Shown here one piece after another: positions 18,929 through 27,232 of a DNA stretch of 64,000 nucleotides; position 1 is the first letter of the stretch, and every line of letters starts with the position of its first letter. Source of the stretch: Pseudanabaena sp. Chao 1811 (GTDB lineage: Bacteria > Cyanobacteriota > Cyanobacteriia > Pseudanabaenales > Pseudanabaenaceae); assembly GCF_027942295.1 (NCBI RefSeq), contig NZ_CP101416.1, positions 3,706,501 through 3,770,500 on the forward strand, given 5' to 3'. The notes beneath the pieces were generated by a model that was not told the origin of the DNA, did not search any database, and was given only the letters and a program-made list of their open reading frames with translations. The translations under genes were made by a program, and so were the position numbers.

Positions 18929-18981
18929 AAAACCCATAGGAGAGTTGCGACGCAAAGCGTCGCAACTCTCCTATGGGTTTT
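18929..18981. repeat. Very long GC-AAA-GC hairpin (25-bp arms)
   Basis: Perfect 25-bp arms, AAA loop. It lies between the divergent ferredoxin and LOG-like genes, and its right arm would overlap the 5' end of the LOG frame if an upstream ATG at 18973 were used. Confidence 0.8.
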
Positions 18982-19020
18982 GATATTGAGTGCGAGGATC
19001 AAGCTCCCTCATCTACTAAA

Positions 19021-20100
19021 ATGATATTTATGGCTATAATTCCTTCAACTTCAGATATTAAAGCTCTTGCAGAAGATTTGCATAAGCTGGTTGATAATCT
19101 CGAATCGACCGAGCATGGAGAGCTAATTTACAGTGCCTTAAAGGCGATCGCCCAACTTAGTCAGACCGATGCTGAGCGTCTCGACTGGAAAATTTTGACG
19201 GGTTCTTTGCAGGATATGCAAAAGGCGATCGCCATGTTTTATCCGTACCGTTTTAAGCGCAAGGTGAGTATTTTCGGCTCGGCACGTACCCACTCGGATG
19301 CCCCTGAATATCGGCAAGCCTATGAGTTTGCTGAGCAGATTACCCAAAGGGGCTTTATGGTAATTACTGGAGCTGGGGGCGGTATTATGGCGGCAGGTAA
19401 TGAGGGATCGGGAGAAAATTCCTTTGGCTTAAATATCAGTTTGCCCTTTGAACAAACCAGTAATGGTTTTGTACCTGAAGATTCTCGTCTGGTTAAGTTT
19501 CGCTATTTCTTTACGCGCAAATTATATTTTGTGAAAGAGAGTGATGCGATCGCGCTTTTCCCTGGGGGATTTGGTACGCAGGATGAATTTTTTGAATGTT
19601 TGACGCTTTGCCAAACGGGACGGACTACGCCACGCCCGATGGTGTTAATGGATAAGAAGGGCGGTGATTACTGGAAGCAATGGGATATTTTTGTCCAAGA
19701 GCAGTTGATTGCAAGGGGATTGATTGTCAAGGAGGATCGCAGTCTCTACAAAATTACTGACGATATTGATGAGGCTTGTCAATATATTTCTTCGTTTTAC
19801 AGTGTTTATCATTCCTGTCGATGGGTGGGCGATTTGTTTGTAATTCGCTTAAATTTTGAAATTACTGATGAGCATCTTGAGCGCTTAAACGATAACTTCA
19901 GCGATATTTTGATCAAGGGTAAAATAGAGCGTAGTCAGGCTTTGCCCAAGGAAGCTAATGAGCAACATATTATCGATTTGCCACGGTTAACTATGCACTT
20001 TAATCAACATAGTTTCGGGCGGTTGCAAGAATTGATTACAGCAATTAATGACACCTGTGATAGTGGTAATCCAATGGTTTGCCACCCTGAACAACGTTAA
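19021..20100 (+). CDS. LOG-family (TIGR00730-type) protein
   Basis: About 359 aa. The core is a Rossmann-like LOG/lysine-decarboxylase-like domain: VSIFGSARTHSD, the PGGxGTxxE signature as PGGFGTQDEFFE, and GAGGGIMAAGNEG. LOG proteins act as cytokinin-activating nucleotide 5'-monophosphate phosphoribohydrolases; this long form has extra N- and C-terminal segments and its substrate is not established. ATG at 18973 is in frame but lies inside a perfect hairpin arm, so 19021 (or 19030) is the more likely start. Confidence 0.82.
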   Translation: MIFMAIIPSTSDIKALAEDLHKLVDNLESTEHGELIYSALKAIAQLSQTDAERLDWKILTGSLQDMQKAIAMFYPYRFKRKVSIFGSARTHSDAPEYRQAYEFAEQITQRGFMVITGAGGGIMAAGNEGSGENSFGLNISLPFEQTSNGFVPEDSRLVKFRYFFTRKLYFVKESDAIALFPGGFGTQDEFFECLTLCQTGRTTPRPMVLMDKKGGDYWKQWDIFVQEQLIARGLIVKEDRSLYKITDDIDEACQYISSFYSVYHSCRWVGDLFVIRLNFEITDEHLERLNDNFSDILIKGKIERSQALPKEANEQHIIDLPRLTMHFNQHSFGRLQELITAINDTCDSGNPMVCHPEQR

Positions 20101-20181: not shown

Positions 20182-21447
20182 ATGAGAGGCGGTATCCGCA
20201 TCGGCAGCATTTTTGGTATCTCACTATATGTAGATTCATCATGGTTTCTTGTACTTACTATTCTTGCGATCTTACTGGGAAATGCCTATGCCAAGTTGTC
20301 GCCATCCTTTTCCCTAGGTTATGGTGTGATTACCGCCATACTCTTCTTTTTGTCGATCGCATTTAATAAAATTGCTCATGCCCTTATGGCTAAGCTTAGG
20401 GGGGTCGAGATCAATGCGGTTAACATTCAGTTTATTGGTGGCGCTAGTACTGAGCAGGAAGCCAAAGATCCATTCTCCGTATTTAGCATTGCTATCTCTG
20501 GTCCATTAGTTAGCTTAGTTTTAAGCGTGATCGGATTTACGATTGCTTGGCTAATTGCAGGAGACTCCCTTCTTTCCAGTAATCCTAAAGCCATCGAAAA
20601 TTTGCCTACAAGCATCGGTAATATTCGTGCTATCTGGGCAATAATCACTTTGTATTTTGCCCAAATAAACCTATTTATTGGCGTGTTTAGCCTCATTCCT
20701 GCACTTCCCTTTGCAGGCGGTCATATTCTCAAAGCGGCTATTTGGAAATTAACTGGCGATCGCTTTACGGGAATTCGCTGGGCAGCGCGTTCAGGGCAGG
20801 TAGTTAGCGTAATCATCATGATTTATGCAGGACTAGTGTTTGCCAGTAACTTGCTATTCGGCATATTTTTTCTATTGTTAGGCTGGCTACTATTTGGTAA
20901 TGCAGGTAGCTATTTGTATATAAACAACCTCCAGCAAGCACTACTAGCCATTAATGCCGAATCAGCCATGACCAGAGATTTTCGCCTAGTTGATGCTGAT
21001 ATCTCATTACGTGACTTTGCAGACAAATTTCTTCTTATGGAAGAAAAAGATGCCAATCCTATTTATATTGCTTCTGCAAATGGAAGAGATCGTGGTCTAG
21101 TGTCATCAGAAGCGATCCGTCATATTGACAGTCATGAGTGGGAAGCAAAATCTTTACAGACCTTAGTAACCCCCTTAGATGAAATTGACACAGTTGATCT
21201 CAAAGCTCCCATTTTCAATGTGATTAGTCTCATGGAACAAAAACAGTTGCGCTATGTAATTGTGCGATCGCCTGTAGGCTCAGTTGCAGGAGTTATTGAT
21301 CGTGGTGATATTATCAAAGCTCTTGATGGCAAACTACTATGGCGTATTCCTTCTGAATTCATCAAACAGATCAAAACTGATGGAAAGTTTCCACCCAATT
21401 TGCGCCTGAGTGAGATTTGTGAACAGTTAATACAAAATGAGAAATAG
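20182..21447 (+). CDS. M50 site-2-protease-like membrane protein with CBS pair, catalytically degenerate
   Basis: A 421-aa protein with the layout of cyanobacterial S2P family proteases: about six transmembrane helices (1-240) and two CBS domains (about 255-380). It opens exactly like active homologues (GGIRIGSIFGISLYVDSSWF). The zinc motif HExxH is replaced by NKIAH (residues 62-66), so the first His ligand and the catalytic Glu are gone, and the third ligand motif LDGG is FAGG (177-180), losing the Asp. It is therefore probably a pseudoprotease that binds membrane clients or nucleotides through the CBS pair. The frame is intact, which argues for a retained role. Confidence 0.85.
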   Translation: MRGGIRIGSIFGISLYVDSSWFLVLTILAILLGNAYAKLSPSFSLGYGVITAILFFLSIAFNKIAHALMAKLRGVEINAVNIQFIGGASTEQEAKDPFSVFSIAISGPLVSLVLSVIGFTIAWLIAGDSLLSSNPKAIENLPTSIGNIRAIWAIITLYFAQINLFIGVFSLIPALPFAGGHILKAAIWKLTGDRFTGIRWAARSGQVVSVIIMIYAGLVFASNLLFGIFFLLLGWLLFGNAGSYLYINNLQQALLAINAESAMTRDFRLVDADISLRDFADKFLLMEEKDANPIYIASANGRDRGLVSSEAIRHIDSHEWEAKSLQTLVTPLDEIDTVDLKAPIFNVISLMEQKQLRYVIVRSPVGSVAGVIDRGDIIKALDGKLLWRIPSEFIKQIKTDGKFPPNLRLSEICEQLIQNEK

Positions 21448-25602: not shown

Positions 25603-26037
25603 TTATAAATTAAGTTGCCTATCAAGCGTAATTCCAGATTGCGCTAGTTTTCGTGATTGGGGACTTCCTTTTAAAATATTATTACCACCTGAACTAATCC
25701 AATAAAAACGCTTTTTTGGCTGTTGATTTAATTCAGGAGCATCTGTTACTAAAAATTCTTTTAACCAGCTAAATTTTTTTAAAACCGATGTAACCTCAGA
25801 TGTATCAGCGCTATGCACCTCAATGAAATATGTTGTTCCGTCATAGCCAATTGCATAATCCCAACGTGAAGCATTACGGTAAATATCCTTAACAGCAGTA
25901 TCAATATCGACACTACCTTCACACTTTTTCGTGTCAGAAGGTCTAACTTTGTTACTATAATTTCCTAACGCTTGTAAGCCATTTCTATAAGCATCTTTTA
26001 GTAAAGGTGTTGCAGAAACTGCTTCTTTAAAATCCAT
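25603..26037 (-). CDS. Small nuclease-like partner of the adjacent ATPase
   Basis: A 144-aa protein without a recognised name. Residues 56-78 (ASRWDYAIGYDGTTYFIEVH) show the D-x12-E-x-(K) spacing of PD-(D/E)XK nucleases: Asp60, Glu73, with His75 where Lys is usual, and Glu40 as a possible helix-1 acid. This is an inference from pattern alone. It is encoded 9 bp behind the ATPase gene on the same strand, so it is the second gene of a two-gene unit, and its stop lies 5 bp from the tRNA-Ala gene. Confidence 0.7.
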   Translation of the reverse strand: MDFKEAVSATPLLKDAYRNGLQALGNYSNKVRPSDTKKCEGSVDIDTAVKDIYRNASRWDYAIGYDGTTYFIEVHSADTSEVTSVLKKFSWLKEFLVTDAPELNQQPKKRFYWISSGGNNILKGSPQSRKLAQSGITLDRQLNL

Positions 26038-26046
26038 TTTTAAAAC

Positions 26047-27201
26047 TTATAATTTGTCTTGAACTGCCTGAGAAACAACTTCAGAAGCTCTACTACTAAA
26101 ACTAGTTAAACCACCCCAATCGGCTGTTGATAAATCTTCATCAAATGGATCTAATGATGAAATATCACGCACCTCAACACCATCTTCTTTTTGGTCGAAA
26201 TAATAAGTAGAAAATTTCTTGTTTTTGAGAATATTTTCAAAAAGCTCGGTAATCAGTGGTGATGGTTTTAAATCGAAAAGTTGATAGAGATATTTAACAT
26301 CAGAGTTATTATTCTGTAAGTTGCGAATTGCCCAAACTGCTTCTAAAAGAACAGGTGAATGTGTCGAAATAAGTAAACGATAACCTCGGTGTAAAAGCTC
26401 TAAACACATCAAAATAACTGACAAAATTGCACGAGGATGCAAACCCATTTCTGGTTCTTCAATAACTACAAAATCGATATCAGGTTTCTTTGAATCCTCT
26501 AATACGGGCATTAGCCAATAAAGACCTAGGAGTAAAGGCATAAATTCTCTTTGCCCAGCCGACCAAGCCATAAATGGCAACAAATTACCATTAACATTAA
26601 TTTGAATGCGTTTACGCATCCCAACTGTATTTAATTCAACTTTAGCACCATGAAAAATACTTGCATTAATAGCATCACTTATATCTTGTCTGAGTTGTCC
26701 TGTTTGAGGAAAAACAGCGTTATCTTTATTAATAAATCCCTGTTGCATCAATAATTGTAGATGTTCACTAAATTGACGAACAACATAAGGATAGTCAATC
26801 GCAAAACTAGTAAATGAACGCGGCCATCCATTCTCAAGAGTCAACACACGTTGAGCAGGTACAAAAAATATACGTTCGGGATCACTACTGAGATAGCGAT
26901 TTTTTAATAATTCATCTAGAGGATTTCTTATGTTGTCACAAATTATTTCTGTACTGTCGCTCAGTAGATTACGCATTCCCTCGCCAAAATAAAGCTCACT
27001 GAAATTAGATACGTTCATATCCCAGTCATAGCCATATTTTAAAAGAGTATCTTTAATATTACTGATATCAAATAACAATTTTATGAGTTGTAATAAAATG
27101 CTTTTCCCTGTAGCTTGCGCTCCAACAAAAAGAGTTAGATCTCCAAAATCTATATTTGCACTTTTAATTTGACCTAGATTTTTAATATTAAGCTGTGTCA
27201 T
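26047..27201 (-). CDS. OLD/RecF-like AAA-family ATPase
   Basis: A 384-aa ABC-type ATPase of the SMC/RecF/OLD class: N-terminal LNIKNLGQIKSANIDFGDLT, Walker A GAQATGKS (about residues 27-34), signature-like WSAGQRE (about 218), Walker B VVIEEPEMGLHP (about 245) and H-loop ISTHSP. There is no Toprim domain, so the nuclease activity would have to come from its partner. ATG at 27201 gives the conserved N-terminus; a TTG at 27222 is an alternative. It sits 31 bp after hisC, with the nuclease-like gene 9 bp downstream. Such ATPase-plus-effector pairs are common in phage defence. Confidence 0.85.
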   Translation of the reverse strand: MTQLNIKNLGQIKSANIDFGDLTLFVGAQATGKSILLQLIKLLFDISNIKDTLLKYGYDWDMNVSNFSELYFGEGMRNLLSDSTEIICDNIRNPLDELLKNRYLSSDPERIFFVPAQRVLTLENGWPRSFTSFAIDYPYVVRQFSEHLQLLMQQGFINKDNAVFPQTGQLRQDISDAINASIFHGAKVELNTVGMRKRIQINVNGNLLPFMAWSAGQREFMPLLLGLYWLMPVLEDSKKPDIDFVVIEEPEMGLHPRAILSVILMCLELLHRGYRLLISTHSPVLLEAVWAIRNLQNNNSDVKYLYQLFDLKPSPLITELFENILKNKKFSTYYFDQKEDGVEVRDISSLDPFDEDLSTADWGGLTSFSSRASEVVSQAVQDKL

Positions 27202-27232
27202 AAGAATTAGCTCATACGTCAATTAGAAAATG

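Follow-up and report, generated by a model that had tools for sequence, protein, structure and literature searches.

A CBS-type site-2 protease homologue in Pseudanabaena, apparently inactivated in place and kept as a pseudoprotease

When a homologue of the site-2 proteases (S2Ps) carries other residues where the cutting motifs should stand, is its gene decaying, or has the protein been kept for a role that needs no cutting? The question is raised by an open reading frame in the 64,000-nucleotide stretch of Pseudanabaena sp. Chao 1811 that was analysed here as a whole (the window), in a genome of 4.73 Mb on a single contig. The original prediction described the product as an M50-like membrane protein with frame, membrane core and CBS pair intact and with all metalloprotease motifs lost, and likened it to inactive rhomboid-type pseudoproteases with regulatory roles. 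The features discussed below are collected in Table 1.

Table 1. Positions of the gene, its parts and its former active site in the window, and of two paralogues elsewhere in the genome
Feature	Coordinates	Strand	Remarks
M50/S2P-type gene of the CBS type, putative pseudoprotease	20182..21447	+	421 aa, ATG start, open frame
M50 membrane core, residues 1-256	20182..20949	+	PF02163 at 51-194; 3b4r alignment
CBS pair, about residues 257-389	20950..21348	+	PF00571 match 335-382; structural CBS-pair matches
Former HExxH, now NKIAH, residues 62-66	20365..20379	+	first zinc-binding His and catalytic Glu substituted; H66 retained
Former NxxPGLPLDGG loop, now SLIPALPFAGG, residues 170-180	20689..20721	+	Asn170->Ser, Asp178->Ala
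EGY-like M50 paralogue (L002/L051)	C1:1234174-1235745, outside window		RELAM for HExxH, LDGG kept
EGY-like M50 paralogue (L004/L081)	C1:457943-459418, outside window		RAIAQ for HExxH, LDGG kept

The architecture is as described. In Pfam, the protein matches Peptidase_M50 (PF02163) with 49.7 bits against a cut-off of 27.2, and a single CBS copy (PF00571) is scored with 30.3 bits; NCBIfam has no family for it. The structure was predicted from a 38-sequence alignment with a mean pLDDT of 84.9, and CBS-pair proteins align to the model over about residues 253-389, so that the term CBS pair is structurally valid although Pfam scores one copy. Among the matches listed, the best structural match of the predicted model is the Methanocaldococcus jannaschii S2P (PDB ID 3b4r), with a Z score of 20.1 and an rmsd of 3.3 over 216 residues, in an alignment that spans model residues 3-257. 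The same protein came up with an E-value of 7.4e-26 when a profile was run against the sequences for which structures have been solved.

At the columns of the former active site, active members have HELGH or HELAH and, as a rule, NLIPGLPLDGG, and the replacements by NKIAH and, at residues 177-180, by FAGG are both present in the frame. The statement that all motifs are lost holds for the first histidine, the glutamate and the aspartate, and Asn170 is gone as well, but H66, G179 and G180 are kept. The Asp of LDGG, the third zinc ligand, is thus absent from the source-genome protein, which has Ala178.

Each of 26 Pseudanabaena genomes carries one orthologue, with an open frame of 417-424 residues in every case and HExxH in none. 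The first zinc histidine (residue 62) is replaced by Asn in 20, Ser in 4 and Thr in 2 of them, and the catalytic glutamate (residue 63) by Lys in 25 and Arg in 1, whereas H66 is retained in 23, including the source genome, and is Arg in 3. At residue 178, the zinc aspartate has become Glu in 23 genomes and Ala in 2 and is still Asp in 1, and within the genus FAGG is found only in the source genome and its 97%-identical neighbour. The changes N170->S, G174->A and L177->F are each present in 26/26, and N163, P173, P176, G179 and G180 are retained in 26/26. In the genus, column 63 hardly varies, but three quarters of the columns in the membrane part vary less than column 62 does, so that one part of the old site is fixed while another drifts. 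Sequencing error or chance as the cause of the motif loss is ruled out, because all 26 genus genomes examined share it.

Outside the genus, the picture is the opposite. Both histidines, the glutamate and the aspartate are intact in 12/12 genomes from the seven remaining genera of the family, and HExxH and DGG are present in all 124 class loci examined outside the family. These comprise 114 loci, 108 with the long type and 6 with a shorter paralogue, to which 10 more were added, one of which (L365) has its gene split across two frames. They come from the better-scoring 116 of the 163 out-of-family genomes matching at E<=1e-40, which leaves out 47, and from 4 named loci, the remaining named loci being family members that were not added, many of them apparently genomes counted already; in 2 of the 116 genomes, the shorter type alone was found. 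The profile search covered 195 genomes, 11 of which gave no match at E<=1e-40. An intact HExxH in relatives had been named as evidence against the motif loss, but since the motif is present outside the genus and missing inside it, the loss is dated rather than refuted.

The phylogeny places this loss. In an IQ-TREE analysis of 78 sequences, in which the bootstrap did not fully settle, the genus forms one clade (100/100), the genus and the rest of the family form one clade (100/99), and the shorter paralogous type is separate (100/100), the Pseudanabaena protein grouping with the CBS-type orthologues. The class was represented by 34 long-type sequences, randomly drawn from the 108, together with 6 short-type sequences; for tree and alignment, genus and family sequences were trimmed at 440 residues on account of a non-homologous tail in one of them (L039). 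A single loss on the Pseudanabaena stem, followed by vertical descent, explains the motif counts. Acquisition from elsewhere of a gene whose motifs had been lost beforehand was also considered and is not supported, because the genus clade is nested within the family clade.

An active paralogue in the same genome had been suggested as a point to look for, and one exists in the form of an active-looking RseP-type protease, but not of the CBS type. In Pseudanabaena, no active CBS-type copy was found alongside the gene: at E<=1e-3, 38/38 family genomes gave a single match each, and a profile search at E<=1e-40 likewise gave one per genome in 17/17 sampled genus genomes, some of all these assemblies being incomplete (76-100%). 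Because no further copy turned up in the genus at these thresholds, the cutting residues were apparently lost in the resident gene itself, rather than following a duplication with one copy remaining active.

The surroundings of the gene point to no partner. A gene for a LOG/lysine-decarboxylase-like (SLOG) protein at 18973-20100 on the plus strand ends 81 bases upstream on the same strand, and it adjoins the M50-type gene only in part of the genus; ferredoxin and DnaJ genes likewise lie upstream only in part of it. None of seven neighbour proteins from the window adjoins the gene in other genera within flanks of 3-5 kb, in a search against 48 loci, many of which are the same genome counted twice. 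Elsewhere in the window, at 25603-27222 on the minus strand, a gene pair for an AAA ATPase and a small partner matches PADLOC PDC-M56A (571.1 bits) and PDC-M56B (199.5 bits) and is thereby a candidate for anti-phage defence.

Selection on the gene was assessed with pairwise Nei-Gojobori estimates of dN/dS (our own implementation), taking medians over pairs with dS of 0.1-1.5. The median within the genus is 0.090 (127 pairs) or 0.091 (131 pairs), compared with 0.118 for active orthologues from other cyanobacterial families (36 pairs from a set of 22 sequences that we chose because they are close to one another) and 0.100 for active family members, the latter from only 2 usable pairs. Because a value of about 0.09 is as low as that of active orthologues, the Pseudanabaena protein can be regarded as being as constrained as its active relatives, that is, as a maintained pseudoprotease and not a decaying gene. 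The pseudoprotease reading of the original prediction is upheld by this purifying selection, together with the intact frame and the loss of catalytic residues in all 26 genus genomes.

The changes are concentrated where the active site used to be. In 120 active sequences, 100 columns have one residue at a level of at least 90%; the genus has a different majority residue in 28 of them, and 22 of these 28 lie at residues 54-90 or 166-182. Fisher's test gives p-values of 2.6e-8 for this clustering and 1.5e-5 for the membrane part alone, both of which are too good, because the residue windows were set after the changed columns had been seen. The clades used as controls are small, with 2, 3 or 9 members. 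Four active ones from within the family show 28/105, 26/101, 14/101 and 9/98 changed columns, of which 12/28, 13/26, 8/14 and 2/9, respectively, are near the site, while a control clade from the class shows 5/102, with 0/5 near the site. Since active family clades have also altered conserved columns near the site, part of the remodelling can be ascribed to general family divergence. The near-site change is nevertheless strongest in Pseudanabaena, and compared with the control clades only there are the His, Glu and Asp affected.

The sequences show that the first zinc-binding histidine, the catalytic glutamate and the zinc aspartate are gone from a gene that has an intact frame, occurs in 26/26 genus genomes, descended vertically and has beside it no active CBS-type copy at the thresholds used; a predicted S2P fold and purifying selection complete the picture. 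The explanation that we favour, and hold to be more probable than not, is an in-place conversion on the Pseudanabaena stem to a selected pseudoprotease that would act as a CBS-sensing, non-cutting membrane receptor or tether. A client or regulator in the membrane would still be bound by the substrate groove of the M50 core but no longer be cut, the CBS pair would sense a small ligand, probably a nucleotide, and the bound ligand would alter how tightly the client is gripped, giving a ligand-gated membrane tether or receptor. Speculatively, the lysine at the position of the catalytic glutamate (25 Lys, 1 Arg) may replace the charge of the zinc by pairing with Glu178; this pairing would fail in the source genome, because it carries Ala178.

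Several observations count against this explanation: the neighbourhood points to no partner, active family clades also changed conserved columns near the site, and constraint is weaker on the membrane part than on the CBS part. The last of these would fit the CBS pair being the sole working part, with the M50 core reduced to a membrane anchor. Within the genus, dN/dS is 0.063 for the CBS part and 0.108 for the membrane part, 28 of 30 conserved CBS columns are retained and 2 changed, and the ratio of membrane to CBS divergence is 1.2-1.5, compared with 0.8-1.0 in the class. However, active family members already have ratios of 1.0-1.4, so the membrane part may be relaxed at most mildly, and the core is still under strong purifying selection, is full length in 26/26 genomes, and has the former active-site columns 170, 174 and 177 fixed for a new residue in all of them. 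We therefore regard a mere anchor as unlikely and keep the gated receptor or tether as the preferred reading.

A further possibility concerns the other M50 homologues of the genome. At E<=0.001, PF02163 matches four proteins of the source genome, the labels RseP-like and EGY-like being our own assignments from architecture and motifs. Besides the gene in the window, these are a presumably RseP-like protease with a PDZ domain (L001), in which HELGH and LDGG are intact, and the two EGY-like paralogues of Table 1. The RseP type keeps both motifs in 26/26 genus genomes. The first EGY-like type (L002) has Arg at the first histidine in 37/37 family sequences examined (26 from the genus and 11 of 12 others, the twelfth genome having given only a fragment), while elsewhere in the class His stands there in 27/27 sequences (26 HExxH, 1 HDLGH), drawn from the better-scoring 27 of 51 matching out-of-family genomes. 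This type is probably a second, older and family-wide pseudoprotease, judging from these counts, although its family group has a support of only 0.65 in a midpoint-rooted FastTree phylogeny of the EGY-like sequences. In the second type (L004), HExxH is found in 0/33 family sequences. These do not join their presumed class counterparts in the same tree, so that orthology is uncertain; in the possible counterparts HExxH is present in 17/23 and missing in 6/23, and the loss in this type therefore appears to be repeated. The dN/dS is 0.080 for the L002 type and 0.203 for the L004 type, which evolves faster. As three of the four homologues in the source genome are without HExxH and only the RseP-like protein has both HExxH and LDGG, three of the four look catalytically dead.

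The protein in the window might accordingly serve RseP in the manner of an iRhom, either by binding the clients of this protease or by regulating it; RseP is the only one of the four matches in the source genome to keep HExxH and LDGG, and it does so in all 26 genus genomes. This we consider quite doubtful, because more than four M50 matches are found in 4/26 genus genomes, where all seven extra proteins that were read carry HExxH. Several of these extra proteins (L340-L346) have long C-terminal parts, which by their appearance we take to resemble TPR repeats.

Catalysis that is kept or regained with other residues (H66, E178, K63) would be in line with H66 in 23/26 and an acid at position 178 in 24/26 genomes, but it is very improbable, as the first histidine and the glutamate of HExxH are missing in 26/26, H66 is missing in 3/26, and 2/26, including the source genome, have no acid at position 178. 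A decaying gene or a sequencing or assembly error, to which lost motif residues in a protease gene could point, can be dismissed almost with certainty given a loss common to 26/26 genomes, their open frames and a dN/dS of about 0.09.

Beyond the receptor or tether proposed for the single protein, a broader scenario may be put forward, though we are somewhat less inclined than not to rely on it: Pseudanabaena would have disarmed most of its site-2 proteases and yet kept the proteins, one EGY-like type first and the CBS type later, with RseP spared. If true, a role such as the membrane binding of transcriptional regulators would be an old, important part of cyanobacterial S2P function, and cutting would be dispensable without a replacement gene. 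S2Ps are usually explained through what they cut. With three of the four S2P homologues found in the source genome lacking the cutting motif, and with sister genera that keep the motif in the CBS type, the genus offers a natural separation-of-function experiment on which S2P roles need proteolysis.

Among solved structures, the M. jannaschii S2P has a zinc site and a membrane-core fold that matches the one predicted for the Pseudanabaena protein, which differs in lacking the first His, the Glu and the Asp. SpoIVFB, an active sporulation protease, is the next M50 structure listed, in complex with pro-sigma-K (PDB IDs 8vjm and 8vjl; Z scores of 13.8 and 12.3), but its core matches only at an rmsd of about 13. 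The iRhoms are membrane members of the rhomboid family without catalysis that serve regulation, and they were the likeness drawn in the original prediction. They belong to the rhomboid family, whereas the Pseudanabaena protein has a predicted S2P fold, and because its best structural match among those listed is the site-2 protease 3b4r, the likeness is probably limited to function.

The CBS-type cyanobacterial S2Ps (the long subfamily) share the M50 core and the C-terminal CBS part and form one family clade with the Pseudanabaena protein apart from the shorter type, but HExxH and DGG are replaced in the 26/26 Pseudanabaena genomes. Sll0528 of Synechocystis, a characterised and related S2P that is perhaps one of the shorter paralogues, has been described as a metalloprotease (PMC4284730). 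This protein and RbcR, a transcriptional regulator, interact, and knocking out Sll0528 lowers the regulon of RbcR (PMC12014562), a possible precedent, by analogy, for a binding role. Hardly any substrates are reported for cyanobacterial S2Ps in the covered parts of these papers (PMC4284730, PMC12014562). Dead protease homologues that are conserved in photosynthetic bacteria are described for the pseudo-orthocaspases of cyanobacteria (PMC6426788), which belong to the caspase-like p20 family and thus to a different protease class from the S2Ps.

A cyanobacterial S2P pseudoprotease was not found by title among the matches listed in the part of the literature covered, and uncurated non-peptidase homologues may well be present in databases. 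The nearest known case is EGY3, a plant chloroplast S2P pseudoprotease that has lost its zinc motif, is conserved and reportedly has a stabilising effect on other proteins of the chloroplast (PMC9355673, PMC10978774); a 2022 paper calls plant EGY3 the only S2P pseudoenzyme. The Pseudanabaena protein resembles EGY3 in being a conserved S2P homologue without a zinc motif in a photosynthetic host. To our knowledge, EGY3 has no CBS domain. In contrast to EGY3, which is described only for plants, the Pseudanabaena gene is bacterial and CBS-bearing and has beside it no active copy of its own type at the thresholds used, and it looks like a new, bacterial counterpart of an S2P pseudoprotease known from plants.
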